Below the pieces are notes generated by a model. It had not been told where the DNA came from and did no database searches. It saw nothing but the letters and a program-made list of their open reading frames with translations. Made by a program: the position numbers and the translations under genes. A stretch of DNA of 52,695 nucleotides, from contig JALGZD010000110.1 of NCBI GenBank assembly GCA_025782395.1, positions 1 through 52,695 on the forward strand, given 5' to 3'. The DNA is from a bacterium. GTDB lineage: Bacteria > Joyebacterota > Joyebacteria > Joyebacterales > Joyebacteraceae. Below are positions 1 through 38,669 of this stretch, one piece after another (the first letter of the stretch is position 1; the number at the start of each line of letters is the position of its first letter).

Positions 1-2120
1 TCGATGGATATCCCTTCGGAGTAGGCCGTCCTAATGAGCGTACGAACTGCCGATCTGCCTCGTTCGAGTGCGATGGACCAGTGCCTGTAGTCCTGCTCCC
101 CAGGGCTGGGCAGCCGCTTCGGGAATCGCAGCTTGACACCCTCCAGCCTCAGGTCCTTCAGCGCGGCGTCGAGTTCCTGCCTGAGTTCGAACTCATCTAT
201 CGCCTCTGGAAGACGCACCTGAAGCAGCCGCTCACCTTCCCTTGTACGGAATATGGCAGATTCAGGCTCGAGGCCAATAGCAGCAAGCCACCGGCTCACT
301 TCCGCAGTGGCGGCTTCCTCTCGAGCAGCAATCGCGGGACCACCAGCTCCTGATGCCAAGCCCGGCGCGACATCCATGAAGAACGTGTCTACTGAAAAGT
401 ACTCGTCAGTGAAACCCACGCCGGTGATAGCCGCATATGTGTGCAGATTCAGCAGACCGTCGGTTGCCGGAAGCTCACTGGCCACTGCAATAATCGGCAT
501 CCAGAAGTACGCATCTCTGGAGTAGCGAACAGCGATCGCTTCGGGCCACTCCTCGGAGTGATATCCGAAGATCTCTGTCAGGGTGACGTAAGACATGATG
601 ATACCGAAGTCACCTCGGCGGAAGCACGCCAGCGCACTTCGCTGCTCCTCGGCGCTGGTCGGCCAGACTAAGGTCTTCACAACCTCATCGAGTAACTGGT
701 CCTCGGCCTCCATAGTTCTCGCGAGAACCATAGCTAGGAATGGGTCGATTCGCGATGGGGCTCCACGCTCGGGAACAATGGCATGGAAGAAGTGCCGGTG
801 GAATCCCCGCGGGACCCCACGAACCAGGCGACCGCTTGTGGCCCGTTCCAGAAAGCCGTCGACCTCATTCCGTCTGCCATCGATCTCGGTCGTCCATAGA
901 AACGCGTTGTCAATCCTCTGCTGGTACCCCCTCTCGCCGGCGTCTCGGATTCCCAAGAGAAGCCCTCCACCGAAGACCAACAGAATCACCGACATCAGGA
1001 ACATTAGCGGGGGCATCCGCTCCAACAGGAAGCCGCTCAGAGACGATGCGGAGGACCGCGGGTATTTCCAGAAATCACGGATGGCCAACGTGCGAAAGAA
1101 CCGTCCAGAGGGCCTCCTGACCCGCGGTCTGGCACTACCTGCTCGGTCGGCTTCCGCTGTCGAGAACTCCGCAACTTGAGATGAGGCGGCCTCCGGGACA
1201 ACCACCGCGGCTCCCACTTCCGCTCGATCAAGACCGAACACTGGTTCCGGCGGAGCGCCCGAGACGAGCCGCCAGAGCTGGTCGGAAGCCTCGCTCCGAC
1301 GATGGCTCAGCGACGAGCGCAAGATAGGCTCGATGGACTCTAGCACAGTCGGCTCAAGCGCGTCTGATGTTGCCGGACACGTCTGATCTTCCTTGACTTG
1401 TTCCTCACCAGAGGCCCTCTCGCGGAGTATGACAAAGACATCGCAGTAGTTGAGGGCGACATCCAAGCGATGTGTGCTGACTACCACGGATCTACCCTCG
1501 ACGTCCTCTGCCCAATTCCTGAGGAAACCGAATATGCGCCCCTCGACTTCGAAATCGAGACTTGCGGTTGGCTCATCCGCAAAGACCACATCGGGAGATG
1601 CAGCTACCGCCCTCAGGACAGCGACACGGCTCCTTTCGCCCCCGGACAGGTCAGCGGGATTCCGCAAGAGACAACCTCCTGGTCCTCGGATGCTGTCGTG
1701 ACCAAGTTTGAGGCTCTCGAGCCACGCCTCCAGCTTCTTCCGCGGCCAGTGCTGGCCGTCAATCCACGCAGGAATCTGGAGGTTGTCCTCTACGCTGAAC
1801 TGCTCAAGCAACTCGTCGTCCTGGAAGATGTAGCCGAAGTCTTCAACCAGTAGTTGACGCTTCTTGGGCGCGTCGGAGCAAGCCTGCTCGTAGTCGACAA
1901 CCTCCCCGTTCGCTCGATGATAGAGAATCCGTCCAGCATCGGCTCTATCCATGAGAGAGAGCATGTTGAGAAGCGTCGTTTTTCCGACGCCTGAAACACC
2001 CAGCAGCGCAATCATGGGCGCGCGCGGTATGACCATCCGCGGTGGGTAGACGATCGGGCACCCAGCGAAGCTGCGGGTGACCCCGTGGAGTTCGAACAAC
2101 TTGTCAGCCGGTTCAGTCAT
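1..2120 (-). CDS. MacB/LolD-like ABC transporter, ATPase fused to permease (partial)
   Basis: The frame is open from an ATG at 2120 to the left edge (706 codons), so the C-terminus is missing. The N-terminal ATPase has Walker A GVSGVGKTT (residues 41-49), a Q-loop YIFQDDELLEQF, signature LSGGERSR, Walker B VVFADEPTASLD and H-loop VSTH, all in order. A linker follows, then one hydrophobic span near residues 370-390 (PLMFLMSVILLVFGGGLLLG), then a long soluble region still open at the edge. ATPase, one span, then a large periplasmic domain is the MacB-type layout, which normally ends in three more spans. MacB and Lol transporters act on substrates at or in the envelope rather than by classical import. 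It is the last visible gene of the region A array, 231 bases after the vWA gene. That gap shows no convincing gene. The substrate is unknown. Confidence 0.9.
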   Translation of the reverse strand, partial: MTEPADKLFELHGVTRSFAGCPIVYPPRMVIPRAPMIALLGVSGVGKTTLLNMLSLMDRADAGRILYHRANGEVVDYEQACSDAPKKRQLLVEDFGYIFQDDELLEQFSVEDNLQIPAWIDGQHWPRKKLEAWLESLKLGHDSIRGPGGCLLRNPADLSGGERSRVAVLRAVAASPDVVFADEPTASLDFEVEGRIFGFLRNWAEDVEGRSVVVSTHRLDVALNYCDVFVILRERASGEEQVKEDQTCPATSDALEPTVLESIEPILRSSLSHRRSEASDQLWRLVSGAPPEPVFGLDRAEVGAAVVVPEAASSQVAEFSTAEADRAGSARPRVRRPSGRFFRTLAIRDFWKYPRSSASSLSGFLLERMPPLMFLMSVILLVFGGGLLLGIRDAGERGYQQRIDNAFLWTTEIDGRRNEVDGFLERATSGRLVRGVPRGFHRHFFHAIVPERGAPSRIDPFLAMVLARTMEAEDQLLDEVVKTLVWPTSAEEQRSALACFRRGDFGIIMSYVTLTEIFGYHSEEWPEAIAVRYSRDAYFWMPIIAVASELPATDGLLNLHTYAAITGVGFTDEYFSVDTFFMDVAPGLASGAGGPAIAAREEAATAEVSRWLAAIGLEPESAIFRTREGERLLQVRLPEAIDEFELRQELDAALKDLRLEGVKLRFPKRLPSPGEQDYRHWSIALERGRSAVRTLIRTAYSEGISI

Positions 2121-2351
2121 CTGGAATCTCCTGCTGCATTGTGCGCCCATGGCGTCAAGACAGCCACAGCCACCAGAGGCGATACCACTCCGGTCGGTCT
2201 TCGCCTGTAGGATTTGGCGACTCCGACTGGCTACTGGACCCGCGGCCACTGCACGCTCGGAAGCCTCTCAACTGGCTTTGCAGATGCCAATCACCTCTGA
2301 GCGTTGCTGCCGTAGTTACACAACTGGCGAATCCCGTGTCCCTAGACAGTG

Positions 2352-4748
2352 TCACGGTAGTTCCTCCAAGTGGAGCCACATGTAGTTGATGGTGTAGTTG
2401 GGGAACCACCTCTCTTTGTCCGCGCGGTACTCCTCAAGTCTATCCTTGGCGTCTTCGGCTGCTTCGACCATCTTGTCTATCTCATCGGAATCCGCTGCTT
2501 GGAGTTCGTCGAAGTCCTTGCTCAGGAAGTCGCCGAGCTTCCGGAAGGGGAGTGCCCGCGTCATAGTGATGTACTCCTGCGGACTTCGCACGGGATGGCC
2601 CATAATCATCCCGATTGCGTCTCTCCACACAAAGAAGGCGTTTGGCTGATTCTGGTAGTAAAGGAAGTCATCTAGAACAGCGATCGTTGCGCTTAGGTCG
2701 GACTCTGACACAAGCAGAGTCGGGCGAAGAACGGGTCTACCTCCGGGGTCGTTGATCATGCACCATCCGGGGTGGAAGAGCTGGAGCTTGTCGCTCAGCA
2801 GATTCCGCCGGACTTCGTCATCGGGTACCAGTTCACGCACAAGCTGCAGGAACTCATCAGTGGCCTCGTAGAACAACCTCTTTTCTTCCTCGGTCTTCAG
2901 TGAATCCAGAATCTTCGAGGGATCCAAGTCCCTGGCAATAAGCATATCGAACATATACTCGGCCATGAACGACGACCGACGCAACACGTCCTCGAGCTCC
3001 GCGTTCAGCTTTCTCCCTACCCCTTCGATATCGTTGGCATTGGGCTTGCTGGACCAAAAGCGCGTCCAGTCTCTCTTGTCATCGTCGAGCAGGCCGAGGA
3101 GCTTCTCGTCCCACTGAAGATCTCCGCGTATCAGTGCCCGATCTCGTTCTCCCGCGCTCCGCACGGTGGCCAAGAGCCGCTCTGCATCCGTCTTGAATTT
3201 CTGAATCGCCCGAGCCTCAGCTGGCCCCTGGGGGGAGCGTCTGATGTGGATGGCGAACGCCGCAAGAGGGAGATCCTCCACAAGGCCCTCCAGCTCCTGC
3301 TGGTTCCAGCTCCCCTTGCTGTCGTTGTTACCAGCATCACCTATCACGACAAGCACATTGCGTTCGTAGGGGCAGGCGATGTCCGTAAGAGCAGTTCGAA
3401 CTCCCTCAAAAAGGGCCTCCTCGAAATCATCGTCCTTGCTGGTCGACGGCTGCTCGACCTTGGCCTTGAGAAAGGAGGCTATACCCTGGGGGGTAGTGAG
3501 ATCGCAGTAGTCTATCTGCTCAGCCGGAAGATCCGAGAGATCCCGATAGACGACCGCAGCATAGAGCACCTCCACATTCGAGTAGAGCGACCGACTCCTC
3601 TCGACCTCCTCTGTAACCTCAAGAACTACATCAGCTGCGGCGCTCAGGTACGGCCCCATGCTCTTCGTGCAATCCAGCACGAATATGATGTTCGTCCGTC
3701 GCGATCGATCGTAGACTTCCATGAACACGGGGTTGTACTCCGTGGGATCGCCGGGCGTCGTCTCCCCGTCGTGTCCTCTGAACAGCACGTGCCCCATGAA
3801 GCCGAGAAACGCTCGGTCGTCTCTTTGCTTCTCAAGCGACAACGCGACGTAACGCCACTCATCTGCCGGCCACTCGTCCTTGTCACCCTTGTCAATGAGA
3901 AGCGGCTTGCCTTGCCCTCCACCTACCACCATCCTCAGCTCCGGCTCGTCGCGGTATATGTCTGCGAAGGTGACCCTGTCTGGATGCGGTTCGTACGCTA
4001 TTCTCGTATCCCAGGCCATGACGTCGCTCTTCTCCACCCAGCCTATGATGTAGTCCTCGGGACGCTCCACCCGGGCCTCGCTTCGGGATCCAATCAGGAA
4101 CCACCTGGCACCTTTGTCAGCACCGCCACTACAGACATCATACTTGTAGAGAAAGGCAAAGGGCTCCTTCACACCGCTAATCGAACGAAGAACCCTTGCG
4201 TCAGCACCGGGCCCAGCCCTGACCTGAATTTTCCTGTCTTCCCAATCCTCAAGGCTCTCTTTGCTCAAACCTGCCGATGTTGCTCTGTCTGTGTACTTCT
4301 CCCAGCTGTTGATTATGAAGACCTTCTTGGGGACTCGCGAGGGGTCACTCCGTGCGCACTCGTGGCTTAGAACCAGGTTGTCCGCCTTGACCCACCCAAT
4401 GTCCTCGCCTACTACGATGTCGTCCTTGCGCCAACTCGTCTGTGACCTGATCAGGTGGAGTGACCTGTTGCTCCTATCTTCTTCGACAACATAAAAGGGC
4501 TTGAGGAACTCCAGGCGCTTGCCCGCTTTCGGCTGTAGACAAGCGGAGTCGCTATACGGCTGCACTCCCTCACGGTCCGAGAAGACTACCCAGTTGCGCT
4601 CGATGGGCATGACCCTTGGACCCAGGCAACCGTCGTAGAACCCAAGGTCGGCGGGAATCCTCAGCACCTGGCGAGCATGAGCCGCGACGGGAGCGAGCAC
4701 TAATAACAGTGTGATGATGGCAGTGTGCATGGGGGTCCCGGGTTTCAT
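2352..4748 (-). CDS. Secreted vWA-domain protein with two GW/SH3-like segments
   Basis: This 798-aa protein begins with a signal peptide (hydrophobic residues about 10-24, ending AAHA). Two similar segments, IGWVKADN near 117 and IIGWVEKSDV near 234, look like bacterial SH3-type modules. A von Willebrand A domain starts at TNIIFVLDCTKSM (D359, T361, S363), close to a canonical DxSxS metal site, and later shows VLVVIGDAGNND. The C-terminal 250 residues are charged, helical and unrecognised. SH3-like modules followed by vWA recall TssR of Bacteroidetes type VI secretion, but this rests on layout only and no other T6SS gene is visible. I chose ATG 4748, preceded by GGAGG 11 bases upstream. The stop of the upstream gene lies 9 bases before this start, so the two are probably coupled. 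Likely role: a periplasmic adhesion or scaffold component. Confidence 0.82.
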   Translation of the reverse strand: MKPGTPMHTAIITLLLVLAPVAAHARQVLRIPADLGFYDGCLGPRVMPIERNWVVFSDREGVQPYSDSACLQPKAGKRLEFLKPFYVVEEDRSNRSLHLIRSQTSWRKDDIVVGEDIGWVKADNLVLSHECARSDPSRVPKKVFIINSWEKYTDRATSAGLSKESLEDWEDRKIQVRAGPGADARVLRSISGVKEPFAFLYKYDVCSGGADKGARWFLIGSRSEARVERPEDYIIGWVEKSDVMAWDTRIAYEPHPDRVTFADIYRDEPELRMVVGGGQGKPLLIDKGDKDEWPADEWRYVALSLEKQRDDRAFLGFMGHVLFRGHDGETTPGDPTEYNPVFMEVYDRSRRTNIIFVLDCTKSMGPYLSAAADVVLEVTEEVERSRSLYSNVEVLYAAVVYRDLSDLPAEQIDYCDLTTPQGIASFLKAKVEQPSTSKDDDFEEALFEGVRTALTDIACPYERNVLVVIGDAGNNDSKGSWNQQELEGLVEDLPLAAFAIHIRRSPQGPAEARAIQKFKTDAERLLATVRSAGERDRALIRGDLQWDEKLLGLLDDDKRDWTRFWSSKPNANDIEGVGRKLNAELEDVLRRSSFMAEYMFDMLIARDLDPSKILDSLKTEEEKRLFYEATDEFLQLVRELVPDDEVRRNLLSDKLQLFHPGWCMINDPGGRPVLRPTLLVSESDLSATIAVLDDFLYYQNQPNAFFVWRDAIGMIMGHPVRSPQEYITMTRALPFRKLGDFLSKDFDELQAADSDEIDKMVEAAEDAKDRLEEYRADKERWFPNYTINYMWLHLEELP

Positions 4749-4756
4749 CGTGTGAA

Positions 4757-7669
4757 TCACCTCCCTGTCGTCGCGAATCTCTCGATGGCGTCGGCGAGGG
4801 CATCCTCACTCTCAGCGAAATCGTAGCCGGGTTCGAAGAACTCCTTGGCTACCGAGCGGCACGAGCCACCCTCCACCTTCGGAATGCCGACTTCCACCAC
4901 AAAAAGGTCGACCATGTCATCGTCGGAAAAAGGTTCTTCTCCTTCTCGCCACGGGAGGCTCATGTAGGGGGTGTTGGGCACCACATAAATCACCCTGTTC
5001 CGGAGCGGGTTCGCCGAAGCCCACAAGTCCTGGTTGAACTCAGCTACATCTCGGCTCGCCTCACGGACATTGCTCCTGGGCTGCGGAGTACTCACACTCC
5101 CCACTGAGTACGAATCGAGCCATGCGCGGAGATCGTCCGGTGATGCGTCCTCGTAGTCTGTTCCCTGAGCCACGCGCACCAGCACCTTGGTGTGCCCCAC
5201 CGCCTGCAGACGTTCAACGGCTGTCGCCACAGATCGGCTGACACCATCCCAAACATCAAACATATCCTCCGTGGCATCGACTAGCACCACGACGCCCTCG
5301 TGACGTCGGCGGAGTGTAATATCCCCTGAAACGCTGAGTCCAGAAGCACCCTCAGAGCTGTCACTCTCAATGAGATCTACATCCAGAGTCACCGGGTCGA
5401 TTGGCTCAATGCCACGCTGCACAGGGAAATCCAGAGTCACGGTCTCCGACGTTGTCCGTAACCCACTGAGGTGAATTAGGCCCGATCCACCCCTACCAAT
5501 GGGGTCAACGGAGTATCGGACGTCCATGCCGGACGTGCCGTCGCTCAACTCCGTGGTCACGCTACCGAGCCTCGGTGCGTCCGTGCCGTTCGGCACGGCA
5601 CCGTCGTCGATCACGTATCTGACATCCGTCGACACTTCCCTGCCCTCAACGTAAACTACGACTGGATCTCCATTGGTGCCCCAGCGCGCCTCGCCGCCCC
5701 GCCCCCAGTCAACTTTCGACACTTCACACCGCGCCCCAAAGCGCTCGTCCAGGACTGTCTTGTCAATCCTCGTCCCGAAGGGCAGAACCAGATCATCCCC
5801 GCTGGCTCCGCTGGCGAAGAAGCCGAGGGCATCCTCTCTGGCCCCCGGCATCGAGGGCGCGGCCCCAGATGGAGAGGCTATCCTGAATATGACGCGGTCA
5901 CGCGGACCACCCGACTGCTGCCGCCTCGGTCCTATGTAGACATCGAGGCGCCGACTGACCTGCTCTGGGGTCAGGGCAATCGTCCCCCTGTTTCCCTCTG
6001 GTGGAAGACTCGTCTTCTTGCCAAGGTAGTCAGGATGTGAGAGCTCCCACGTTGACTCCTCGATTGGGAAAAAGCGGTTACCCCCGTGCTCAACAAAGGG
6101 GATCTCCAGCTGCCCTGACTGGTCACTGGTGTAGGGCCAGCGTGCGAGATGAACATCGCCAATCGGTTCACCGTAGCTGAGGTCACGCACGGACAGCGTG
6201 TAGACCTCTGGCGCAACTGGAACATCAACGTCCAGCAACCCTTCGCTCAGAAGAGCTGCAGAGAGCGTCCCTCCCCAACCCTCCACGATGATGGCCCCGT
6301 AGTCCTCCAAGTTTATCGTGCCAACGTCGTCCGCGGACAACTGCATCCCGGGGCGCACGGAGCCAAGTTCTATCCCACGCGAAGGCGGATCTTCCGCGGT
6401 AGGCACTGCCCAGGCCCGCCAAGTCACATTCTCACTGGGCAAGTCTTCAAGTAGTCCAGTGACCTCAGCGCCACCCTCAATGTGAACCCCTACCGTCGGC
6501 TGTATCATGCGCTCATCCAACGTCGCCTGGTACACAAACTGTCGATCCCGGAAATCAACCCAGCAGGAGTAACCCGCCCATGCCGGACCGTCGCTCGCCG
6601 TCCGCGCTTGGACTCTGAAGCTCGAGATATCGGAGAGAGCTACCTGAGCTCCAGACGATGTCAGCACGCACCAGTCATCCCTCGCGAATCCGGATCCGCA
6701 TCGACTCACTGGCACCGAGATGTCCGCTCCCCCATCCACTCGATCTTCCGTATTTGTCGTCGCTACCACCAGACCGCCACTCGTTCTGAAGACGCTAGTC
6801 ACGACGAACAGCAGGTCTTCTCCGCCGGGAGGAGCTTCGAGCTCAATGAGAATCCTGTCGGGCGAGGCGCCGTCTGGCAGGTCCTTCATCTCCTGATCCC
6901 GAGCGCCGGCTTCACGACTATCGTCGGCCAGAGCAGTTGCTCCACCGGCATTGACGGCGCCCACATTCGGCGCGGCATCCTGCCGAGTCTCATCGTCCTG
7001 CCCATCGTCGCCCCCCCCCTTCCCGAAGTAGACTACTATCTCGGGAATCACGGCACTCCATACGCTCTCAGAGGAGTCTCCATACCGATCTAACACTACC
7101 TCAACCACGCGCATGTGCTCGTCCAGCGAGAGCTCGACGAACTCGGGTGTAGGACGACGCTCGCCAGGAACGCAGAACTTGATCCCGGCTTGGTAGGTAC
7201 CAGGATGATAACCCCATCCAGATTTGCCGCGAGACCCGAGCTGCACTTCCAGTCTGCGTCCATCGTTGGCAATCTGCGCAGGGTAGTAGAGGCCGTCACG
7301 GTCCCTGAACTCGATGGACACCCTGTTGTGCTCAAAACAGTGAAGGACATCGCCGTAGTCATAACCCTCCGGCCTCACCCCCCCCCTCCCCGGATATTCG
7401 AAGCACTCTCTGCAGTCAACGTGGTTCCCGGAGTCCACGTCTATGACTTGAGCTACGAACACGCCGCCGCGCGCTTTTCCACTTCGCCCGTCGAGCCTCG
7501 GCGCCCATCCACAGGACCACACGGCCAAGGAGGTCAGACAAACGACGAGCGCAACTGCCCCGAGGCGGATTCGTGATCGGCTCGGCGAGAGCCGCTCAGA
7601 CCGATCTGTGAACTCGAATCCACCGCGCCCCGCAGCTGCTAGGGCGCGCCCCAACCGCCGCTGTGCCAT
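4757..7669 (-). CDS. 970-aa envelope protein with degenerate C-terminal vWA-like domain
   Basis: An N-terminal basic stretch is followed by one hydrophobic segment (about residues 36-53, ending VWSC, a poor lipobox), so the protein is secreted, anchored or possibly lipidated. The middle is rich in beta-type sequence with Gly/Asp-rich linkers and no family I recognise. The last 180 residues have a vWA-like start, VVVLVDATEDMFDVW (D798). The DxSxS motif has become DATED, so metal binding may be altered. GGGAGG nine bases before ATG 7669 supports this start over the upstream TTG. Two runs of about nine G on the coding strand (near 7011-7020 and 7378-7386) lie inside the frame. The gene sits directly upstream of the second vWA gene with a 9-base offset, suggesting that the two work together. 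Function unknown. Confidence 0.78.
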   Translation of the reverse strand: MAQRRLGRALAAAGRGGFEFTDRSERLSPSRSRIRLGAVALVVCLTSLAVWSCGWAPRLDGRSGKARGGVFVAQVIDVDSGNHVDCRECFEYPGRGGVRPEGYDYGDVLHCFEHNRVSIEFRDRDGLYYPAQIANDGRRLEVQLGSRGKSGWGYHPGTYQAGIKFCVPGERRPTPEFVELSLDEHMRVVEVVLDRYGDSSESVWSAVIPEIVVYFGKGGGDDGQDDETRQDAAPNVGAVNAGGATALADDSREAGARDQEMKDLPDGASPDRILIELEAPPGGEDLLFVVTSVFRTSGGLVVATTNTEDRVDGGADISVPVSRCGSGFARDDWCVLTSSGAQVALSDISSFRVQARTASDGPAWAGYSCWVDFRDRQFVYQATLDERMIQPTVGVHIEGGAEVTGLLEDLPSENVTWRAWAVPTAEDPPSRGIELGSVRPGMQLSADDVGTINLEDYGAIIVEGWGGTLSAALLSEGLLDVDVPVAPEVYTLSVRDLSYGEPIGDVHLARWPYTSDQSGQLEIPFVEHGGNRFFPIEESTWELSHPDYLGKKTSLPPEGNRGTIALTPEQVSRRLDVYIGPRRQQSGGPRDRVIFRIASPSGAAPSMPGAREDALGFFASGASGDDLVLPFGTRIDKTVLDERFGARCEVSKVDWGRGGEARWGTNGDPVVVYVEGREVSTDVRYVIDDGAVPNGTDAPRLGSVTTELSDGTSGMDVRYSVDPIGRGGSGLIHLSGLRTTSETVTLDFPVQRGIEPIDPVTLDVDLIESDSSEGASGLSVSGDITLRRRHEGVVVLVDATEDMFDVWDGVSRSVATAVERLQAVGHTKVLVRVAQGTDYEDASPDDLRAWLDSYSVGSVSTPQPRSNVREASRDVAEFNQDLWASANPLRNRVIYVVPNTPYMSLPWREGEEPFSDDDMVDLFVVEVGIPKVEGGSCRSVAKEFFEPGYDFAESEDALADAIERFATTGR
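7011..7020 (-). repeat. Poly-G tract inside the vWA-like gene
   Basis: About nine consecutive G on the coding strand encode part of KGGGDD. A tract this long can slip during replication and would shift the frame of the 970-aa protein. The exact length should be read from raw data. Confidence 0.6.
7378..7386 (-). repeat. Second poly-G tract inside the vWA-like gene
   Basis: Nine consecutive G on the coding strand encode part of GRGGVRP. It is the second such tract in the same gene, about 370 bases from the first. Confidence 0.6.
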
Positions 7670-7759
7670 GGAACACAACCTCCCTAGGACTCCTCTTCAG
7701 GTTCTGAGGCGAAGTCCATGCTGACTGCTTCGTACTGCTGAAGGACCCCCACGCACGGG

Positions 7760-9802
7760 CTACTCGCAAGCGTCGGCAACGACGATTACATAGCCTGCGG
7801 CAGTCTCGGGAATCGGGGTCACGTGCTTAGTCTTGCCGAATGCAACAGCGTAGTACGTGTCGTCGAACCCCCATTGCTCCGCGAGCTCCGACGTCCAGTA
7901 GAGAACGGATCCCCCTCGCTCAACTGACCTAATCGGCAGCTTGGGGAAGACCGTGTAGTTGTGCGTCTGTTCCTCGCCACGCGCGACGAACCTCAGTGCG
8001 TCAAGTTCCTCTATGCTCGGCAGTCTCCAATTCCTGCAGTTCAGGAACCCCTCAGAGTTCACGGTTCCCACTAGAACCAGCGCTTCATCATGCGTGACAC
8101 CCCAGTCCGGGACATCCAAGACAGCGTAGACCAGCCCTCGGTACTTACCCCAAGCACCCTCCTCGTCAACAGTTGCCTCGGCCATGATGTCGTCTAGAGG
8201 AATGGGATTGAACTCGATCAGCTGGTCAGTGTCGATGCTGGTACGGAGCATGACCGCCGGGGCCAGCCATATCTTGCCATCCACAGGATGGCTGCCGGCA
8301 AACACAATCATGGCGGAGTCGACGGCCGCGTACGCGGCCAGCCGAACCTCGTCCTTTATCACCGCCTCTACATCCTCCACATGCGCGTAGCGCTCAACCT
8401 GATGGAGCACATCTATTCTCCCGTGGTGCACAAGCCCCCCGTACAGGTCAACGAGCCTCTCCTCAAGCGCCGCGTCCAGCGACAATCGCTCAATGTCAAC
8501 AGTGTCCTCTATGTCATCCAGATTGGGGAAGTAGATCACAGATCTGCTCCTGAGGTGTTCTTTCCTACGCGTCAGAATCTCCCCCAGTCTCGTTGTGGCT
8601 TGCTGCAGGTCACTCTTCACCCTCGACTCGCGCTGCTTAGCGGCCGCGAGAGTCGCCTCCGTGCGATCCACCAGACGCAGGAGGCTGTCCGCGTGGGATT
8701 CAGTCCTTGCGACGCTATGTTCCGCCTCGAGGACACGGTCGCGGGCCTCCTCGTAGCGGACTGTCCAAGCCTCGGCCGCTCCCTCCCGCTGGAATGCCTG
8801 GATTCTCAGTGACATGTTCTCGAAGTGATCAACGACCCGTGGCCAAGCTTGGACTGCCAGTTCATCGTCGATTCCCGATGCGGACTCGGGGTTCGACGCG
8901 TCGAAGACGACTTTGGGCCCCACAGTCACTTGGAAACCACCTGGCACCATCGCTCTATCGCCGGATACTCCAGCGGGCACGTTCTCCTGCTTCCTGAGTG
9001 AGATTGACAGGGGGTATAGAGCGACCAAGATCGCTCCAGTACGATCTGGCGTCTCAGCTACGAATCTGGGCTTGAAGGGCGCAAGGCTCGATACGACGCC
9101 GGAACTCGCTGACAGGACGTACTCGACGAAGTCGTCCCCTTCATACCATGAACGCGTTCGAACATGTTCTCCCGCATACCTCACACCCTCAGAAGACGCC
9201 ACCGGGTACAGCATCTCCGCGATCTGGGTCGAAGTCATGCTCCTGGACAACTCCGCTGGGACAATCGCCTTCAAGTAGACGACGTAGTACTCACTCCTGC
9301 TCTCGAACGTGAAATCTCGGGTTCTCTCAGCATTCCTCAGCCTTCCCTCGGCCCCTGACAAGGCGCCCTTCACGTAGGCAAGCAGCTCCTGATAGCTGGC
9401 CATCAGCGCCTCGTTATAAGCCATCTCCTCTGACACTCGTACGCGCTCATTGTCGTGAATGTGAACATCAGCCATGGCTAGGTCCATCGCGGCTTCGAGA
9501 TCGAACCGCTTATTCTCCCAACGAGCGTTGAACACGTTCATCGATTCCTCAAATGCCTCCCGCAATGAGTCCGCCTGTGCGTTGATGACAATCCCCTCAA
9601 GCCCCGAGAGTTCCTCCGTGAGCATCTCGACAGCGTCTGCTTCGCTCATCCCTCTCACAGAGATCCATGGTGAGGAGAATGGCGCCTCATCTTGTGCAAG
9701 CGTTGCTGCAGGCAGCGCAAGGAGAGCTACTGAGAGAAACACGGAACACCAGCGGCACAGAGCGCCGGAAACTGCCACCAAGTCTGGAGAACTCCCCTTC
9801 AT
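7760..9802 (-). CDS. Secreted coiled-coil protein with DUF1566-like C-terminus
   Basis: The 680-aa protein has a signal peptide (hydrophobic about 20-33, ending ATLAQ). A first region (50-320) is unrecognised; a strong helical coiled-coil follows at about 345-415 (repeated Glu/Arg/Ala with heptad-like spacing). The C-terminal part contains CRNWRLPSIEEL and, further on, LYWTSE. These phrases are typical of DUF1566/fimbrial-type surface domains. ATG 9802 is preceded by GGGAGG at good spacing; a longer upstream frame lacks a site. The gene lies 90 bases before the 970-aa vWA-like gene and after the LPP20-like lipoprotein. I infer an envelope structural subunit. I do not recognise the whole protein. 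Confidence 0.78.
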   Translation of the reverse strand: MKGSSPDLVAVSGALCRWCSVFLSVALLALPAATLAQDEAPFSSPWISVRGMSEADAVEMLTEELSGLEGIVINAQADSLREAFEESMNVFNARWENKRFDLEAAMDLAMADVHIHDNERVRVSEEMAYNEALMASYQELLAYVKGALSGAEGRLRNAERTRDFTFESRSEYYVVYLKAIVPAELSRSMTSTQIAEMLYPVASSEGVRYAGEHVRTRSWYEGDDFVEYVLSASSGVVSSLAPFKPRFVAETPDRTGAILVALYPLSISLRKQENVPAGVSGDRAMVPGGFQVTVGPKVVFDASNPESASGIDDELAVQAWPRVVDHFENMSLRIQAFQREGAAEAWTVRYEEARDRVLEAEHSVARTESHADSLLRLVDRTEATLAAAKQRESRVKSDLQQATTRLGEILTRRKEHLRSRSVIYFPNLDDIEDTVDIERLSLDAALEERLVDLYGGLVHHGRIDVLHQVERYAHVEDVEAVIKDEVRLAAYAAVDSAMIVFAGSHPVDGKIWLAPAVMLRTSIDTDQLIEFNPIPLDDIMAEATVDEEGAWGKYRGLVYAVLDVPDWGVTHDEALVLVGTVNSEGFLNCRNWRLPSIEELDALRFVARGEEQTHNYTVFPKLPIRSVERGGSVLYWTSELAEQWGFDDTYYAVAFGKTKHVTPIPETAAGYVIVVADACE

Positions 9803-10076
9803 TGTCCCTCCCCGTACGAAGGCCAGCCCAGCAAGGCGCCCCGTCACGATCGGGTCGGCCCTTGGAGTCCCGCCGATGCCGCGGGACACATCGATCCGGT
9901 GGCTTGCCCACCGAACGAAGGAGCGGCTCGGAGTAGCGTCGCCCCGAGTGGAACCGAGTGACGCGCTCTCCACTGGCACAAGCGGCGAGTCACGTCACCC
10001 GTCTGCAACGTAGGTTCCCTTGTCGTGGGTGTAATCGCCCCACATCACTCAGTGGTAAGAGTGTAGGGACACACCC

Positions 10077-10661
10077 CTAACCCTCTAGCTCCCTGACCTT
10101 CTCGTCGAGCCTCTGGAAGAACTGGGATTTCTCGAACTTAATCCTGAGCTCCTCGTTCTCGTTGATGGAGTTCACGAACTCGGCATCTGCAAGGTCCCTG
10201 GGAACCGACATCAAGACACACGTCCGCCACCGAGAACTCCCGTCGTCTGCCGGTTCGTCGGGCACGGTCCGCTGCTCCTCAACGTTCGAAGAGAGGAGTG
10301 TCCGGGTGACTACCTGACTGACGGCTTTCTCGTAGGAGTCCCTATCGATTACGCTATCGTTCTGCCCAATCTCCTGCATGAATATCTCAGTAAGGCTACG
10401 GCATCGAGTCTCGATCTCGGCTGTCAGAGCATCTTTCCCCAGCGACCTAGCGGCGTCGAGAGCTATGGTCCCGTTCTTGGCCCTGAAAGTGGCTGTTGCG
10501 TAGAGAAACTCATCGCTGCTCGGGGGGGTCACGAACCACTCGTACGGGCACAACTCCATCTCGAGATCGTCGCTCGAAATCTTCTCACCGTTGGAACCGG
10601 CGCATCCAGCCAAGACACAGAGCGCGCCCACGCACGCCACCACACATGTCCACCTCGACAT
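10077..10661 (-). CDS. LPP20-like lipoprotein
   Basis: This 194-aa protein has a clear lipobox, VLAGC, with the lipidated Cys at residue 20. Its body resembles LPP20/FlgT-type domains: a YATATFRA strand, a helix with repeated Ala/Leu (DAARSLGKDALTAEIETRC), a conserved-looking middle (VVTRTLLSSNVEEQ) and a C-terminal amphipathic helix. Such domains are common in outer-membrane lipoproteins that accompany envelope assemblies. AAGGAGG six bases before ATG 10661 fixes the start. It sits 48 bases after the lytic transglycosylase gene in the same array. The family assignment rests on pattern, not on a search. Confidence 0.72.
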   Translation of the reverse strand: MSRWTCVVACVGALCVLAGCAGSNGEKISSDDLEMELCPYEWFVTPPSSDEFLYATATFRAKNGTIALDAARSLGKDALTAEIETRCRSLTEIFMQEIGQNDSVIDRDSYEKAVSQVVTRTLLSSNVEEQRTVPDEPADDGSSRWRTCVLMSVPRDLADAEFVNSINENEELRIKFEKSQFFQRLDEKVRELEG

Positions 10662-10709
10662 CACAGCCTCCTTTGCCGTCAGGCACACGCGACTTGCGCG
10701 CGAGCCAAC

Positions 10710-11921
10710 CTACCGCCACTCTTCGTACAGCGGCACTCTCTCCATTACCAACGCCAAATAGTTTCTCGTCTCCTCATATGGCAAGTCCTTGATTAGCTTC
10801 TCATAGACTGCAGATGAACTCATTGTGTTGATTTGGACAACCGCAGAATCAACGTCCCTTGAATCGTTGACCCCTCGACTCACGTTCGCAGGTCCCGTGT
10901 TGTACGCTGACACCACGCAGTAGAGTCTCGATTCCTCATTCCGCACGCGAGGGAAGTCCCGCTGTTCGAGGAGCCGCAGGTAGGCGGTCCCGAGCTCGAT
11001 GTTGTTGCGCGGCACGTAGAGATAGTCCGGTGTTGGGACGGTCTTAACTCCCTTTGCGAACTCGTATGCGTCCACTCCCCCTGATGTCGGTACGATCTGC
11101 ATGAGTCCATACGCCGACATAGCCGATTCCGCCCTGGGATAGAACCAGGACTCCGTCTGGATGATCGCGAACACGAGGGCAGGGTCAAGACGGTACCTCG
11201 CAGAGTACTCCTTCACGATTGGCACATAGCGCTCGGCACGGACTCGGAGGTGCTCGGGCACGAGCGTGATGCGGACCGTAGCCTTGACTCTCTTCGTGCC
11301 ATCACGCGAATCGACCACCTCGCGCTCGATTCGGTCGGAAGCAACCGTTTCGTTGGCGAAGGACTCCGCGTTTTCCTCGGTAACGAGCTCCCCCCCTTCA
11401 TTCCTCACCTGCCCCTCCAGAACCGGTGCGTCTGAGAGAGGCTTGGGCTCGGCGTCTCCTACCGAGTAGCCCCTTGTCGATCCCCTGTCAACAACAAGGC
11501 GTTCGACCGCGGCGCGGAGTCTCTCCTCAATAGTCCCCGGACGCGCCCTCTCTTCGGCGTCAGGAACAAGCACCTCGACAGTAACCTCTCCTTCTTCGAA
11601 GTCCACCACGCTTCTCGAGATCAGATCCTCCGAGTACTCAACCCAGTCCTTTTCCGTGGAAGCGACATACGTGTCCCACTCCTGCTCAATCTCGGTCTTG
11701 AATCGAGCGAAGGCAGCGCGCTCCGCCTTGAGCCACTCGCCGTAGGCGACCCGTTCGGCCGCGACGAAGCGATCGTACGCCTCGCGTTCCTCCCGCGCGT
11801 ATCGCTCGAAGTCGTCTTCACCGCTTCCCTGACCCGAGGTCACACCACTGAACACGGACAGGACAATGGCAACAACAACCAGCACGCACGAGGCGCGATT
11901 GGAGACCAATCTAGGTATCAT
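10710..11921 (-). CDS. MltC-like lytic murein transglycosylase
   Basis: Lytic transglycosylases cleave peptidoglycan glycan strands to give 1,6-anhydro-muramyl ends. Often they make room for envelope machines. The 403-aa product has a signal peptide (hydrophobic 12-26) without a proper lipobox. A charged helical N-domain (about 35-110, rich in ERYAREEREAYDRF-type sequence) recalls the DUF3393 part of MltC. A C-terminal SLT fold follows, with the catalytic Glu257 in IIQTESWFYP and the typical AYGLMQIVPTSGG and NIELGTAYL, ending with AYNTGP. ATG 11921 is chosen because the signal peptide follows at once and the M48-like gene ends 11 bases upstream. The usual Shine-Dalgarno position holds a run of eight G. 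The lack of a lipobox differs from proteobacterial MltC. Confidence 0.88.
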   Translation of the reverse strand: MIPRLVSNRASCVLVVVAIVLSVFSGVTSGQGSGEDDFERYAREEREAYDRFVAAERVAYGEWLKAERAAFARFKTEIEQEWDTYVASTEKDWVEYSEDLISRSVVDFEEGEVTVEVLVPDAEERARPGTIEERLRAAVERLVVDRGSTRGYSVGDAEPKPLSDAPVLEGQVRNEGGELVTEENAESFANETVASDRIEREVVDSRDGTKRVKATVRITLVPEHLRVRAERYVPIVKEYSARYRLDPALVFAIIQTESWFYPRAESAMSAYGLMQIVPTSGGVDAYEFAKGVKTVPTPDYLYVPRNNIELGTAYLRLLEQRDFPRVRNEESRLYCVVSAYNTGPANVSRGVNDSRDVDSAVVQINTMSSSAVYEKLIKDLPYEETRNYLALVMERVPLYEEWR

Positions 11922-11922
11922 G

Positions 11923-11930
11923 CCCCCCCC
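11923..11930 (-). repeat. G8 tract in the ribosome-binding position of the transglycosylase gene
   Basis: On the coding strand the start is preceded by AAAAGGGGGGGGCATG. The homopolymer takes the place of a normal Shine-Dalgarno sequence, so a change in its length would alter spacing and perhaps translation. Confidence 0.6.
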
Positions 11931-11932
11931 TT

Positions 11933-12958
11933 TTACTCTCTGCCGACGGCGGCTGTCTGTGGCCTCCTCGACCGCTCCATGAAGAGACGCCTGTTCTTCT
12001 CGTACCAACCCAAGAGGTGGTGAGTCCTCGCCGTGAGGAACGGGTTCGCGTTTCGGAGCTCGGAAAGCGCGGCCGATGTCGACGTGACCTTCGATTCGCC
12101 GAGGTCATCGATTTGGTTGGCGAACAGTTCGGCGTCCGGAGACCCATACCTTGTCTCGACATCCGCTCCTACATTGAGCTTCACAAGTGCCGTGGACGCT
12201 GCGTGGATATTCCCGGACACGGCAAGACCACCGCGATCCGCGCAAATCTCAGCTTCCTCTCGCCACTCGAGCAAATCGCCCCCCATGATCGCGAACAGCA
12301 CACCCGCCAAATAGTCGGGAATCGCCACATCCAGTGTTCCGCTGAGCCCGCCAATCATGTCTAGCAGAAACACGTGTTCGCAACGGATGTGTGCGACTTC
12401 ACGCGCCAGCAGGAAGCGGAGTTCTTCACTGGAGAACGCCCACACCATATCCGAGTTCACGATCAAGACCGGATCGCGGAAGTTTGTCACCAATATGCCC
12501 GGGTCTGCTCCAGTCCCGAGATAGACCTCCGGCACGTCGTGGACCTGGAGAACCGAGCACGCGTCGGCTACCATCCAGTGAATCTCAGACAGCTGGTTCT
12601 CGTCGATCCGCACAAACTGGGTCAGCAGTCGCCCTCTCGCGTAGTTGTGACGGTACAAGTCGTAGTACTTGGTCGCGAGGTAGTGGTAGATTCTTGTAGG
12701 GAGCCGAGACGATAACCGTGCAGTGAGTTCGTAGCCACTTCCGGTCCTGTAACCGGGCAGGTCCCCGACCAGAGAGATCCCGCCATCTGGCACCACTTCC
12801 GGCTCTGGAAGATCGTGGTAGAATCGCTGAAACCTGCCATGGAACAGAAGAGCTACCAGCACTAGTAGGAAGAAGTAGAAGGCCGGGCTCTTCAGCACGC
12901 CCTTCCTCACTTTCCTGACGACTCTCTTGCGCGTCTCCACCATCACGTGTCGCGTCAC
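11933..12958 (-). CDS. M48-like membrane metallopeptidase homologue, zinc site altered
   Basis: M48 peptidases are zinc endopeptidases with HExxH and a distal Glu. This 341-aa protein has a very basic N-terminus, one span at about 27-40 and an M48-like fold. Its motif reads FLLAREVAHIRCEH, so the first zinc His is Arg186, while Glu187 and His190 remain. A plausible third ligand, E237, lies in AEICADRGG. The codon is CGT, one base from CAT. Either the enzyme is inactive and serves as a scaffold, or it uses another ligand. GTG 12958 has GGAG six bases upstream; ATG 12943 is an alternative. It lies 4 bases after the subtilase stop and 11 bases before the transglycosylase, so the three are very likely cotranscribed. 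Confidence 0.82.
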   Translation of the reverse strand: MTRHVMVETRKRVVRKVRKGVLKSPAFYFFLLVLVALLFHGRFQRFYHDLPEPEVVPDGGISLVGDLPGYRTGSGYELTARLSSRLPTRIYHYLATKYYDLYRHNYARGRLLTQFVRIDENQLSEIHWMVADACSVLQVHDVPEVYLGTGADPGILVTNFRDPVLIVNSDMVWAFSSEELRFLLAREVAHIRCEHVFLLDMIGGLSGTLDVAIPDYLAGVLFAIMGGDLLEWREEAEICADRGGLAVSGNIHAASTALVKLNVGADVETRYGSPDAELFANQIDDLGESKVTSTSAALSELRNANPFLTARTHHLLGWYEKNRRLFMERSRRPQTAAVGRE

Positions 12959-12961
12959 TGG

Positions 12962-15466
12962 TCACTCCCGCTCGAGTTCACGAAGGAGCGCGGCTGCCTC
13001 TCGCACAGGCTCGGAGTCAGGGAGCCGTGCCACGGTCTGGAGAATCTCCTCCGCTTTGCCCTCGTCGCCCAATCGGGCGAAAATTCGCGCGTAGTTCATG
13101 TAGAGCCACGCGACGGCCTCCGGATTATCCTCGTGCAGCATCAGAGCTTCCTCTGCCACGGCCTCGGCAGCATCGAAGTGACCCAGTGCGACCAGCAGCT
13201 GCATCTTCTCGCAATGGGCTCGCCAGACTGCCGGATGCCCTTCCCGCGTTTCGATGAAGGCATCATAGCCTGCCAGGCCAAGGAAGTAGTCCCCACCGCG
13301 TGCGAGGCTTGATGCCACGTAGTACTCAATCCAGCCCATACCGTCGTCATCCAGGGACGGCTCGCGCATCGCCACTTCGAGAACCTCAAGTGCCGTGACG
13401 TAGTCGCCACTCGCATACAGCACTTTCGCCTCAAGATAGACCGCGAGTTCTGGTTCTCCCACGCGGTGAGCGGATGGTTCTTCGTTCAAACTCGCGGGGA
13501 GACCCCCTCCCACCGCGCGCTGCCCGGTGTCCGTAGCATCTGCCTCGTGGGCGGCCTCACGTCCTTCGGGTGACTCGCTGTCGACGAGGCGCTCCACAGC
13601 CCTCGAAAAGGCCAAGCCCAGTCGACCTCCGCTCGACTCACCAAGACCGAAGTGAATCCCCAAGAAAGACAGAACTACAAGCGCGACAATGCCAAGCACC
13701 GAAGCAAGAACGCGGCTGCGTGTTCCGCTCGAGCGTCCGGCTGATACGCGTCTCTCTGCGCTTCCAGCCTCTGCCGCGCCAGCCACGCTGGTGGCCGCCG
13801 TGCGCTCCGCGTCTGGAGCGGCTCTCTCATGCATGGCCTCTGCTTGGCCTGCAACGCCGGCCGGCGTCGCAAGCCCCTTCGCTGAAGCTCGCGCCGGCCG
13901 TGCATCACCGACTCCCCTTCCAGATAGAGCCACCGCGACAGCTGCTGTGTCGATGAGCCCCTGCCCCTGAGCCGCGTCGTCGAAACCGCTGAGCTTCCTC
14001 GCCCGCTCTGCGCAAAGCTCTAGGAGATCTTTCGCCGGCAGCTCCTCTTTCCTCTCAAGAACGTATCCGAGAATAGCAGCGACCGCCCCCGTGACGTGGG
14101 GCGCCGCCATGGACGTCCCGGAAAGGACCGTGTATCCCCTGGCTTCAGAGTACTCAACAAGGTCATCTGCACAGTGGGACAGCGGGGCAACAATCGCAAC
14201 GCCGGGCGCGACGACGTTGGGCTTCGGGCCCGTCGAATCGGGGGCGTTCGTCGGCCCCCTGCTACTGAAATCCGCCACGTTCTCATCGCGGTCAATAGCA
14301 CCCACTGTGGCCGCTGAAGGGGTATCACCTGGGGTCGTGACCGTTTCTCTTTCCGGACCGCTATTTCCCGCGGAAATCACGACACATACGCCTGCGCGCA
14401 CGGCCTTCTCGCAGGCTCGGGCGAGAAGACCCTGGCCATCAGTCGCGCCAGGACCGCCGATACTCAGGTTAAGAACACTGGCCCCGTTGTCGATGGCCCA
14501 CACGACCCCACTCACGACACTTGTCGTTGTGCCACCCATCTGACCCAACACCTTGGCACTGACAAGCTCGGCATGCGGAGCCACGCCTGCATAGTCGCCC
14601 TTCGAGGCAGCGCCAGTTCCGGCGGCTATCCCAGCAACGTGCGTTCCGTGACCGACGAGATCAGCCACATCAAGCTCGTTGGGAACGAAGCTCTTGTGCG
14701 CTCTGACGCGCCCCTCGAGGTCCGCGTGCGTGTCGTCAATCCCAGTGTCCACGATCCCAATGGTGACGCCCTTGCCTCGCTGCTTCGGAAATCCCTTGGG
14801 TAACTCGTCCTCGTTCAGGACCATCCTTACGCAGGACGACAGGCGCGCTTCTGCGACATTGGGCTTGAGAGGCTGAGGTTCGGGGATGCGGACGCTGGCG
14901 TCGCCGTCGTAGAGACAACGCACAAATCGCAGACGAGCGAGTGACTCTATGAGAGCATACTCCGGAGGCACAGAGAAATGGAGCATTCCAAACAGGCGCA
15001 GTTTGCTCTTCGCTGACTCCTCCTCCTGCGTATCCCCTGCGCCGCCGAGCCTGAAGCCCGCGCACTCTAGCTGCTCAGCCACGTCGTCGAAATCCGCGTT
15101 GTCGTCCAACTCCATCACCAACGTCGGCCAATTCGGTACAGGTACCGTCTCCGCGTACCGCGCCAGGGCGGTCGCGAAATCTCCCACGCTCTCAGCCGAA
15201 ACATCTCCTATGCGAGCAAGTTCTGTCAGTTTCCCCGTGACCCGCTCATCGCTGACTTCTTTGCGTGTGACGTGCTCCTTGCGCACTCGATGCTCGTGGT
15301 CACCTTCGCATTCGCTGGTCTCCTCTACGATGGTCTCTTCCTCAACTTCGCTATGTCTCTCTGCAAGGAACTCACACTTCAGCTCTCGCAATCTCCCCTC
15401 ATAGGCTTCTCTCCGTCGTAGGTTGGGACCGAGTCTATTCTGGAGGTCATTACCTAGATTACTCAT
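12962..15466 (-). CDS. Membrane subtilase (S8) with C-terminal TPR-like region
   Basis: The 834-aa protein carries a complete S8 catalytic set: Asp240 in GIVDTG, His273 in GHGTH, oxyanion Asn368 in ISAGNSG and Ser452 in GTSMAAPH. The first 230 residues are a charged extension (Glu-rich around 39-75) that could be a propeptide or partner-binding region. There is no signal peptide. An Ala-rich linker leads to one span at about 587-607, preceded by GTRSR. By the positive-inside rule this places the protease in the cytoplasm and the TPR-like helices (about 680-830) outside. ATG 15466 has GGAGG nine bases upstream and overlaps the preceding stop in ATGAGTAA. It probably processes a partner, possibly the neighbouring caspase-like protein; that is inference. 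Confidence 0.9.
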   Translation of the reverse strand: MSNLGNDLQNRLGPNLRRREAYEGRLRELKCEFLAERHSEVEEETIVEETSECEGDHEHRVRKEHVTRKEVSDERVTGKLTELARIGDVSAESVGDFATALARYAETVPVPNWPTLVMELDDNADFDDVAEQLECAGFRLGGAGDTQEEESAKSKLRLFGMLHFSVPPEYALIESLARLRFVRCLYDGDASVRIPEPQPLKPNVAEARLSSCVRMVLNEDELPKGFPKQRGKGVTIGIVDTGIDDTHADLEGRVRAHKSFVPNELDVADLVGHGTHVAGIAAGTGAASKGDYAGVAPHAELVSAKVLGQMGGTTTSVVSGVVWAIDNGASVLNLSIGGPGATDGQGLLARACEKAVRAGVCVVISAGNSGPERETVTTPGDTPSAATVGAIDRDENVADFSSRGPTNAPDSTGPKPNVVAPGVAIVAPLSHCADDLVEYSEARGYTVLSGTSMAAPHVTGAVAAILGYVLERKEELPAKDLLELCAERARKLSGFDDAAQGQGLIDTAAVAVALSGRGVGDARPARASAKGLATPAGVAGQAEAMHERAAPDAERTAATSVAGAAEAGSAERRVSAGRSSGTRSRVLASVLGIVALVVLSFLGIHFGLGESSGGRLGLAFSRAVERLVDSESPEGREAAHEADATDTGQRAVGGGLPASLNEEPSAHRVGEPELAVYLEAKVLYASGDYVTALEVLEVAMREPSLDDDGMGWIEYYVASSLARGGDYFLGLAGYDAFIETREGHPAVWRAHCEKMQLLVALGHFDAAEAVAEEALMLHEDNPEAVAWLYMNYARIFARLGDEGKAEEILQTVARLPDSEPVREAAALLRELERE

Positions 15467-15872
15467 CCGCTCGATCCTCCAAGGCTTCCACCGATCGGTT
15501 CCTCTCAATCTGGCTTACCGTGTCCGTCTGGGCCAGTGCCTCGACCTCTATGAGCGCGAAGCTCCCCAAGGCCGCCAGAAGCGACTCCGACCCGGGCAGA
15601 CGAATCGACGTGACCCAAATCTCCCGGCTGTCTGTAGCTGGCCACTCCCACGTGAGCGCTTCGCCTTGCTCAACCAGCGGACGCCCCAGCTCACGCAGTC
15701 CCTGCCGGAATCCGTCGTCCCCAGTAGAAATGACGATGACCTCGGTGATTATGCCATCTTCGCCGATTTCATCTGACATCAGTCGGATTTTGCGGTTGCT
15801 TATAGTACCTCGGAGAGGAACGGGAGTAGCGAGTTCGAGTCGGGCCGTGAGTTCTGCCTGATCATCAGGCAT
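15459..15872 (-). CDS. Small protein of unknown function, first gene of the envelope array
   Basis: About 137 aa, acidic, with no membrane segment or signal peptide and no motif I recognise. It reads as a compact alpha/beta domain (strands around ITEVIVISTG and WVTSIRL, helix FRQGLRELGRPL). The start is uncertain: ATG 15872 is natural for the protein, but TTG codons at 15890 and 15905 are also in frame, and the former has a G-rich stretch eight bases upstream. Its stop overlaps the subtilase start by 8 bases, so the two are translationally coupled. Small proteins coded next to a protease are often its partner, inhibitor or adaptor; nothing in the sequence decides this. Confidence 0.65.
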   Translation of the reverse strand: MPDDQAELTARLELATPVPLRGTISNRKIRLMSDEIGEDGIITEVIVISTGDDGFRQGLRELGRPLVEQGEALTWEWPATDSREIWVTSIRLPGSESLLAALGSFALIEVEALAQTDTVSQIERNRSVEALEDRADE

Positions 15873-16064
15873 GCCTCTCTCGTCAGGCAACGTGAGTACC
15901 CCCAATCAGGTAGCTTGCTTCCAAGACGCCAGAACTTGCGTCTCTGGACTTCGTGTGATATGGAAGGCATATTGGCGACGTAAGTTGGATATTACACGGA
16001 GGCAGTGGCCTTCGTCAACCATAGACTGCGTTCACAGCAGTCAAGGACCGGAATCGGGAGCCCC
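15873..16064. promoter_or_regulatory. Divergent control region between the envelope array and the caspase-like gene
   Basis: About 190 bases separate the two divergent starts, the only divergent pair in the window. Promoters for both directions must lie here or in the flanking 5' ends. I see only weak matches: on the minus strand TTACGT, 17 bases, TATCAC. No clear operator was found. Confidence 0.3.
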
Positions 16065-16946: not shown

Positions 16947-16970
16947 TGAACCGCCCCGGCTTCTCCGGAG
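16947..16970 (+). repeat. Terminal inverted repeat of the IS (orfB end)
   Basis: It reads TGAACCGCCCCGGCTTCTCC and onward to GGAG. It matches the reverse complement of 18232-18255 at about 19 of 24 positions. Confidence 0.88.
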
Positions 16971-16976
16971 CCCCTG

Positions 16977-18205
<1,229 letters not shown>

Positions 18206-18231
18206 GACCCCATCCTCTCACGAAATGGAGT

Positions 18232-18255
18232 CTCCGGCAAACCCGGTACGGTTCA
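18232..18255 (-). repeat. Terminal inverted repeat of the IS (orfA end)
   Basis: Read inwards on the minus strand it begins TGAACCGTACCGGGTTTGCC. It pairs with 16947-16970 and is followed directly by the GAC duplication. Confidence 0.88.
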
Positions 18256-25294: not shown

Positions 25295-25350
25295 CTCGCT
25301 CCTCCCCGATTCCCTGAGTGTGTAGAGAGCCGCCGACCACAGCAGCCCGC

Positions 25351-37885: not shown

Positions 37886-37906
37886 TTCACCTCCCAAGGC
37901 CGCATG

Positions 37907-38470: not shown

Positions 38471-38616
38471 TAGCAAACCGGAACGCCCTCCTTCTGGTGC
38501 GGCCCCACTACTCCCCCTCCGCAAGATCCGCGGTACTGGAGTGCGGCCACTGCGCAAACGCCGGCATCGCTGGCCACGGTACAGCGCGGGGCTCATCCCG
38601 CAGCATTCTCGCGAGG

Positions 38617-38641
38617 TGGCGTCCCAAACGGGATTCGAACC
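38617..38641 (-). other. tRNA 3'-end-like fragment (possible attachment-site remnant)
   Basis: On the minus strand, 25 bases look like the 3' end of a tRNA: GGTTCGAATCCC (T arm), then TTGGGACG and CCA. A 5' acceptor strand (GTCCCAA) and an anticodon arm are missing from the 60 bases upstream, which include the ispG 3' end. It lies 29 bases past the ispG stop, at the junction with the accessory region. tRNA 3' ends are classic integrase targets. I saw no second copy by eye. Confidence 0.45.
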
Positions 38642-38669
38642 AGAAGGCGCGAATCATGAGGATGAGTGA

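Follow-up and report, generated by a model that had tools for sequence, protein, structure and literature searches.

Damage to the outer membrane is sensed by TagQRST/PpkA (PMC11881912, PMC6657622), in which TagQ, TagR and the ATP-binding cassette (ABC) pair TagS/TagT signal damage of the envelope to PpkA, a kinase of the inner membrane (PMC6657622, PMC11881912). A second point of reference is TssR, the periplasmic von Willebrand factor A (vWA) protein of the membrane complex of type VI secretion system (T6SS) iii (PMC10781749). Here we describe a gene array on contig JALGZD010000110.1, a stretch of 52,695 nucleotides (the window), in which an exported TssR-like/vWA protein adjoins an ABC ATPase-permease and a membrane-tethered subtilase is encoded a few genes away.

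We propose, with a probability of roughly 0.4, that the array encodes a sensor of envelope status coupled to a subtilase on the cytoplasmic side of the membrane, carried by a strain-variable island. The initial annotation of the window had suggested an envelope machine with regulated proteolysis. This agrees with the domain content, with the predicted topology and with the recurrence elsewhere of two sub-modules, M48-like–MltC–LPP20 and vWA–ABC, but the whole set was not found in distant lineages.

Organisation of the array

Nine minus-strand genes run almost without gaps from 15905 to 1, as first annotated; the open reading frames (ORFs) bear this out, neighbours being separated by small gaps or overlapping.

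15459..15905, minus strand: g1, small protein (148-aa ORF, start uncertain), overlapping the start of g2
12962..15508, minus strand: g2, subtilase with a transmembrane (TM) helix and C-terminal tetratricopeptide repeats (TPRs); Pfam S8, E 8.7e-52
11933..12958, minus strand: g3, M48-like membrane protein; Pfam M48, 1.7e-4
10710..12008, minus strand: g4, MltC-like lytic transglycosylase; Mltc_N and SLT, both above Pfam cut-offs
10077..10688, minus strand: g5, LPP20-type lipoprotein with lipobox LAGC; iterated profile
7760..9802, minus strand: g6, exported coiled-coil protein ending in a lectin-like Lcl_C domain; Pfam Lcl_C
4757..7678, minus strand: g7, 973-aa exported protein; ORF, vWA call unsupported
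2352..4760, minus strand: g8, exported TssR-like/vWA protein; Pfam TssR_VWA 3.2e-6, TssR 6.7e-6
1..2249, minus strand, truncated at the contig end: g9, fusion of an ABC ATPase with a permease of MacB/FtsX topology; Pfam ABC_tran 1.3e-22
1..63, no strand: 63 bp shared with the start of contig C7 (locus L009), by sequence identity

Most of the domain calls made earlier were recovered, namely the membrane subtilase, the MltC-like transglycosylase, the LPP20-like lipoprotein, the coiled-coil protein and the ABC ATPase. The subtilase g2 has both the Asp-His-Ser motifs of family S8 (D254, GHGTHV286, GTSMA464) and the Pfam domain, with the catalytic domain at 245-481; its best NCBIfam match was mycosin (140 bits, below the cut-off). 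A single TM helix (600-618) separates the catalytic domain from the TPRs that follow it, and since no signal peptide was seen the catalytic domain is predicted to be cytoplasmic. No match to g1 was found in Pfam, NCBIfam or PADLOC. The M48 assignment of g3 stands only in part: the weak Pfam match remains, but REVAH takes the place of the HExxH zinc motif (RQVGH in a Krumholzibacteriota orthologue). Because this motif is lost, g3 is a predicted pseudopeptidase. Its orthologues in Krumholzibacteriota (236 and 224 bits) likewise lie ahead of an MltC gene. In g4 the catalytic Glu is kept within TES in the alignment, and the protein scored 202.7 bits against the NCBIfam MltC equivalog, under the cut-off of 375. 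An iterated profile unites g5 with three proteins encoded on C7 as LPP20-type; none of these four matches the LPP20 domain PF02169 directly, and orthologues match it weakly, below the cut-off. The Lcl_C match of g6 (E 2.4e-8) lies at the Pfam cut-off, with 34.7 bits against 34.9; the ORF of g6 reaches 9979, and the start at 9802 was picked near the signal peptide.

Of the two proteins first annotated as vWA-type, g8 was supported and g7 was not. The TssR barrel and vWA domains of g8 scored 26.5 and 26.9 bits, about 1 bit over the cut-off of 25.7; a search of PDB sequences with g8 gave no match. Complete g9 (900 aa) has four TM helices, the first at 407-425 and the others within 772-884. This arrangement, nucleotide-binding domain (NBD)–TM1–large loop (426-771)–TM2-4, is MacB-like. 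The best NCBIfam match of the NBD was a bacteriocin-export ATPase family, with a score far below the cut-off.

Continuation on a second contig

The array had been taken to end at base 1. This is not so: the window is contig C184 of a 2.9-Mb bin, and base 1 is the end of the contig, for which reason g9 is cut there. The window, read as its reverse complement, closes with 63 bp that also open contig C7 without a mismatch; these are the only two copies in the assembly. The ABC frame stays open across the join, and the array goes on along C7, where g9 is completed and eight genes follow on the same strand. In total it spans about 26 kb and comprises at least 17 genes.

L009:480-1118, strand of the array: g10, LPP20-type protein
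L009:1205-2989, strand of the array: g11, 594-aa lipoprotein with CARDB-like repeats
L009:2986-4323, strand of the array: g12, radical SAM (rSAM)/SPASM protein
L009 to 6086, strand of the array: g13, B12-rSAM protein
L009:6142-6732, strand of the array: g14, membrane protein with two TM helices and a CxC-rich tail
L009:6758-8158, strand of the array: g15, paralogue of TssR-like g8, without vWA
L009:8446-9237, strand of the array: g16, LPP20-type
L009:9559-10203, strand of the array: g17, LPP20-type

Beyond the array on C7 lie a convergent TrkA-type channel and a helicase (L009:11714-16444), which scores 1736 bits against the phage-defence candidate PDC-S37.

Almost every gene of the window is, in our reading, on the minus strand, so co-orientation is weak evidence for an operon, and we discarded the argument from it. 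Overlaps or gaps of a few bases were seen at g2/g3, g7/g8, g9/g10 and g11/g12.

The top matches of the rSAM proteins are maturases of ribosomally synthesised and post-translationally modified peptides (RiPPs): TIGR04463 (171 bits, cut-off 525) and TIGR03975 (134 bits, cut-off 282). The SPASM domain model TIGR04085 was passed (42.2 against a cut-off of 27). The tail of g14, predicted to be cytoplasmic, carries the motifs PVHLCSC, PVSLCEC and PVHLCGC. Together with the bacteriocin-export match of the g9 NBD, these features speak for a RiPP-type biosynthesis and export cluster, in which the rSAM pair would modify the Cys-rich tail of g14 (or a precursor still to be found), the subtilase would free the product, and ABC, LPP20 and MltC proteins would export it. 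We regard this as doubtful: all rSAM and ABC scores are far under the family cut-offs, the topology of g9 is that of MacB and not of a classical translocator, and a search of the gaps for a small free precursor gave none that convinced, only one 77-aa ORF (L009:9322-9555). Relatives of the rSAM proteins were also followed as a route to the same system; the best (in genome G155) adjoins transposase-like genes, an unrelated context.

The vWA–ABC sub-module

The sole plasmid match of g8 is an Azospirillum protein, whose gene is followed by those for a LolD-like ATPase, for an FtsX permease and, by eye, for an FGE-like protein; a Pfam scan of this last protein was empty. On the opposite strand are a PP2C gene and, by eye, a kinase-like gene. 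Many plasmids encode relatives of the Azospirillum vWA protein (125 records), and one vWA relative is common on those of enterobacteria, with 114 Klebsiella plasmid records.

Four annotated loci hold the cassette vWA–ATPase–FtsX–SUMF1. That of Tistrella belongs to a T6SS locus which also carries PP2C and kinase genes. SrfB/SrfC precede the vWA gene in Enterobacter sp. 638, Lelliottia and Cereibacter (loci L188, L190 and L191), where ABC, FtsX and SUMF1 come after it; upstream in Cereibacter there are also a trypsin-like protease and a wall-binding protein. The profile of the cassette vWA protein matches g8 (48.5 bits; hhalign 97%), and that of the cassette ATPase matches g9 (104 bits). No relative of the Tistrella cassette vWA protein was found in phages.

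The two TssR Pfam domains of g8, just over the cut-off and in the right order, raise the possibility of a T6SSiii-like contractile-injection envelope complex built around the TssR-like proteins. We consider this extremely unlikely. No T6SS structural gene was recognised on C184 or C7, and g8 scores higher with the cassette profile. VipB/TssC was not matched in the bin either; as the contig is probably misbinned (see below), this is not conclusive for the true host.

The MltC–LPP20 sub-module

Genome contigs were scanned with three MltC-like proteins, which gave 259 relatives, and 80 loci were kept; 32 stretches of 578 kb from other genomes, not taxon-matched, served as controls. LPP20-type genes were present at 30 of the 80 loci and at none of the 32 controls, pseudo-M48 genes at 2/80 and 0/32. 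ABC ATPases were not enriched at the 80 loci, and none held a homologue of the window's subtilase, of either vWA-type protein, of the Lcl_C protein or of the rSAM proteins. A Pfam tally over 83 neighbours of MltC-like genes gave LPP20 16 times and C14 caspase 5 times, the rest being scattered.

Two Krumholzibacteriota share the window's order M48-like–MltC–LPP20, and in one of them DUF4384 and two C14 caspase genes come next. Pseudoalteromonas HL-AS1 has an operon-like run of LPP20, four hypothetical genes and MltC. A literature search gave no description of the MltC–LPP20 pairing, which over many phyla constitutes a recurrent wall/lipoprotein module, independently of how the array is read.

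The divergent gene

The plus-strand neighbour of the array had been called a caspase-like protease. This call did not hold, since the gene proved to be a single frame split by an insertion sequence (IS) and no profile supports a caspase domain.

16005..16946, plus strand: left half of the divergent gene, open frame running into the IS
16947..18255, minus strand: IS3-type element, orfB 16977-17714, orfA 17885-18205; family by eye
18256..19272, plus strand: right half of the divergent gene; clan-CD-type HG and C motifs

The element ends in TGAACCG...CGGTTCA and is flanked by a 3-bp target duplication (GAC); other partial copies in the assembly are 82-91% identical. The right half carries the HG (LYYHLCHGG) and C (FLGSCEA) motifs, and codon-position GC fits the plus-strand reading of both halves. 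Neither half matches caspase by Pfam or by a C14 profile built from the MltC loci, and the right half has no match among PDB sequences.

True C14 caspases are encoded next to MltC/LPP20 genes in Krumholzibacteriota, Zixibacteria, Desulfobacterales and others, and the flank of the array bears the defence candidate PDC-S37. Both would suit a caspase-linked conflict or defence system, with the divergent gene as effector released by the envelope sensor. Such a system is very unlikely here: the excess of C14 caspases near MltC is modest (8/80 loci, 15 genes, against 1/32 controls), and for those array parts that were scanned PADLOC returned no more than generic models of subtilase and IetS. The link of the divergent gene to the array is weak, because the gene is broken and unrecognised as a caspase by sequence. 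At one Krumholzibacteriota MltC/LPP20 locus (L060:12649-18183), one of the two C14 caspase genes is fused to WD40 and CARDB.

Host of the contig and origin of the island

The block thyX-prmC-murA-selB-ispG occurs twice in the bin (G000), on contig C13 and at window 37793-52695. The C13 copy has about 82-86% DNA identity to two genomes of the same genus (MurA 90-92%). The window copy has about 70% identity to those two genomes, against 99.4-99.96% to two contigs (C162/C169) of G007, a genome from another genus of the same family. Based on these identities, the window is most simply explained as a misbinned contig, probably from the G007 species. Nothing in the G007 assembly matches window 14-34 kb, g7, g8 or Mltc_N, and the G + C content at third codon positions (GC3) of the array genes is 0.64-0.75 (g14 and g15 left out), compared with 0.77-0.89 in housekeeping genes. 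For these two reasons the island appears strain-variable and foreign, and it was probably acquired horizontally, although the incompleteness of G007 (96% complete) could also account for its absence there.

The same facts bear on whether there is one system at all. Two or three independent modules (an MltC/LPP20 wall module, a vWA–ABC sensor and a RiPP-type pair) may simply be neighbours within a variable island. The sub-modules recur apart and never together in the sampled loci, the codon usage is island-like, and the same-species assembly G007 has no match. Against this, the few-base overlaps or gaps at g2/g3 and g9/g10 tie members of different modules, LPP20 paralogues are scattered along the whole array, and downstream of the rSAM genes there is a TssR-like paralogue. 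On balance we consider this reading somewhat less probable than one sensor system, but the strongest of the alternatives.

Several further features of this region were recorded. The bin's native copy of the locus has an integron integrase (L192:15076-16158; TIGR02249, 436 bits, over the cut-off) two genes after ispG, at the position where the window's island begins. An integron array as the origin of the island was considered and rejected, as no repeated attC-like elements were found as direct repeats. Between selB and murA, window 41775-43844 encodes a Sll1717-family P-loop ATPase (227 bits, cut-off 75) weakly similar to an anti-phage protein. Within the island, 24449-25444 and 27068-28168 encode two alike exported proteins, paralogues by eye; the former has no NCBIfam match.

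Proposed function

In the proposed sensor, the exported vWA protein or proteins, the lectin-like g6 and the LPP20 lipoproteins would monitor the outer membrane and wall, by analogy with the Tag system, and the MacB/FtsX-type ABC protein g9 would link what is sensed, across the inner membrane, to the hydrolysis of ATP. The output may be proteolytic, with the tethered subtilase g2 (catalytic domain inside, TPRs outside) acting where the Tag system uses the kinase PpkA. Local editing or opening of the wall could fall to MltC and LPP20, together with the pseudo-M48 protein. The C7 part (g12, g13 and the LCxC-rich tail of g14) would make a modified peptide tail, the likeliest protease substrate or signal; the predicted cytoplasmic location of this tail is the side on which the rSAM enzymes work and g2 could cut. 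The full scheme, a proteolytic counterpart of TagQRST-PpkA in which envelope damage makes the vWA/MacB-type ABC unit switch the tethered subtilase, which cuts the rSAM-modified Cys-rich tail off a membrane protein, is speculative, and we give it rather a small chance. If true, the damage-sensing module known from T6SS regulation would be a cassette of general use, to which a kinase, SrfABC or a protease can be attached; in the island the output would be proteolytic and would involve a membrane tail modified by radical SAM enzymes.

Several results weigh against one sensor system. The complete gene set was found in one assembly only; the search for the same set in related genomes returned nothing but the sub-modules. 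Among 61-386 genomes, TssR-like g8 and g7 were found only in this assembly; a TssR-like profile gave nothing outside it in 386 genomes, nor did a scan of genome contigs for TssR-like proteins with two patterns only. The match of g8 to the cassette covers the vWA domain, with weak N-terminal colinearity, and the cassette permease and SUMF1 profiles fail to match g9 and g6. No Pfam or NCBIfam match to g7 was found, its vWA profile test was negative, and it matches no cassette profile. AlphaFold of g8 (two sequences) gave a predicted local distance difference test score of 30 and was discarded, so that no fold was obtained. Spacers of 200-300 bp, at g15-g16, at g16-g17 and ahead of g6 should its start be at 9802, could split transcripts; terminator-like sites are no commoner than in shuffled sequence.

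Comparison with known systems

The MltC/LPP20 pairs of Pseudoalteromonas HL-AS1 and Krumholzibacteriota RA.bin123 show the same MltC–LPP20 adjacency, with a pseudo-M48 gene ahead in Krumholzibacteriota; they differ in that the other window homologues sought were not found there. The RiPP maturases TIGR04463/TIGR03975 resemble the C7 part in the same pair of rSAM/SPASM and B12-rSAM proteins beside a Cys-rich protein; here the scores are well below cut-offs, and the putative substrate is a membrane protein with two TM helices. Like TssR of T6SSiii (Bacteroidota), g8 is exported, and its matches to the N-terminal barrel and the vWA domain lie at the cut-off; no partner genes were recognised nearby.

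In the Srf-linked vWA–ABC–FtsX–SUMF1 cassettes (Enterobacter sp. 638; Lelliottia and Cereibacter plasmids), the vWA gene lies directly before a LolD-type ATPase and an FtsX permease, and Cereibacter has a serine protease and a wall-binding protein as well, a further likeness to the array. No SrfA/B/C was recognised here, and SUMF1 is at best replaced by the Lcl_C protein, without sequence match.

The parallel on which the proposed reading builds is TagQRST-PpkA/PppA, the threonine-phosphorylation pathway of the Pseudomonas aeruginosa H1-T6SS. The ATPase and permease are one gene here, and no T6SS gene was recognised; nor was a Ser/Thr kinase with PP2C phosphatase among the array genes scanned. 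For the FGE/SUMF1-like TagR the array offers g6, with Lcl_C and no match to the SUMF1 profile. The gene layout is shared in part: g8 and g9 adjoin, as vWA and ABC genes do in the Tistrella T6SS locus, with vWA and ATPase matched by profile, the permease half MacB-like by topology alone and missed by the permease profile. In TagQRST periplasmic sensors, a lipoprotein and an ABC pair report damage to a membrane-tethered cytoplasmic enzyme, as proposed for the array, where the only such enzyme is the subtilase.

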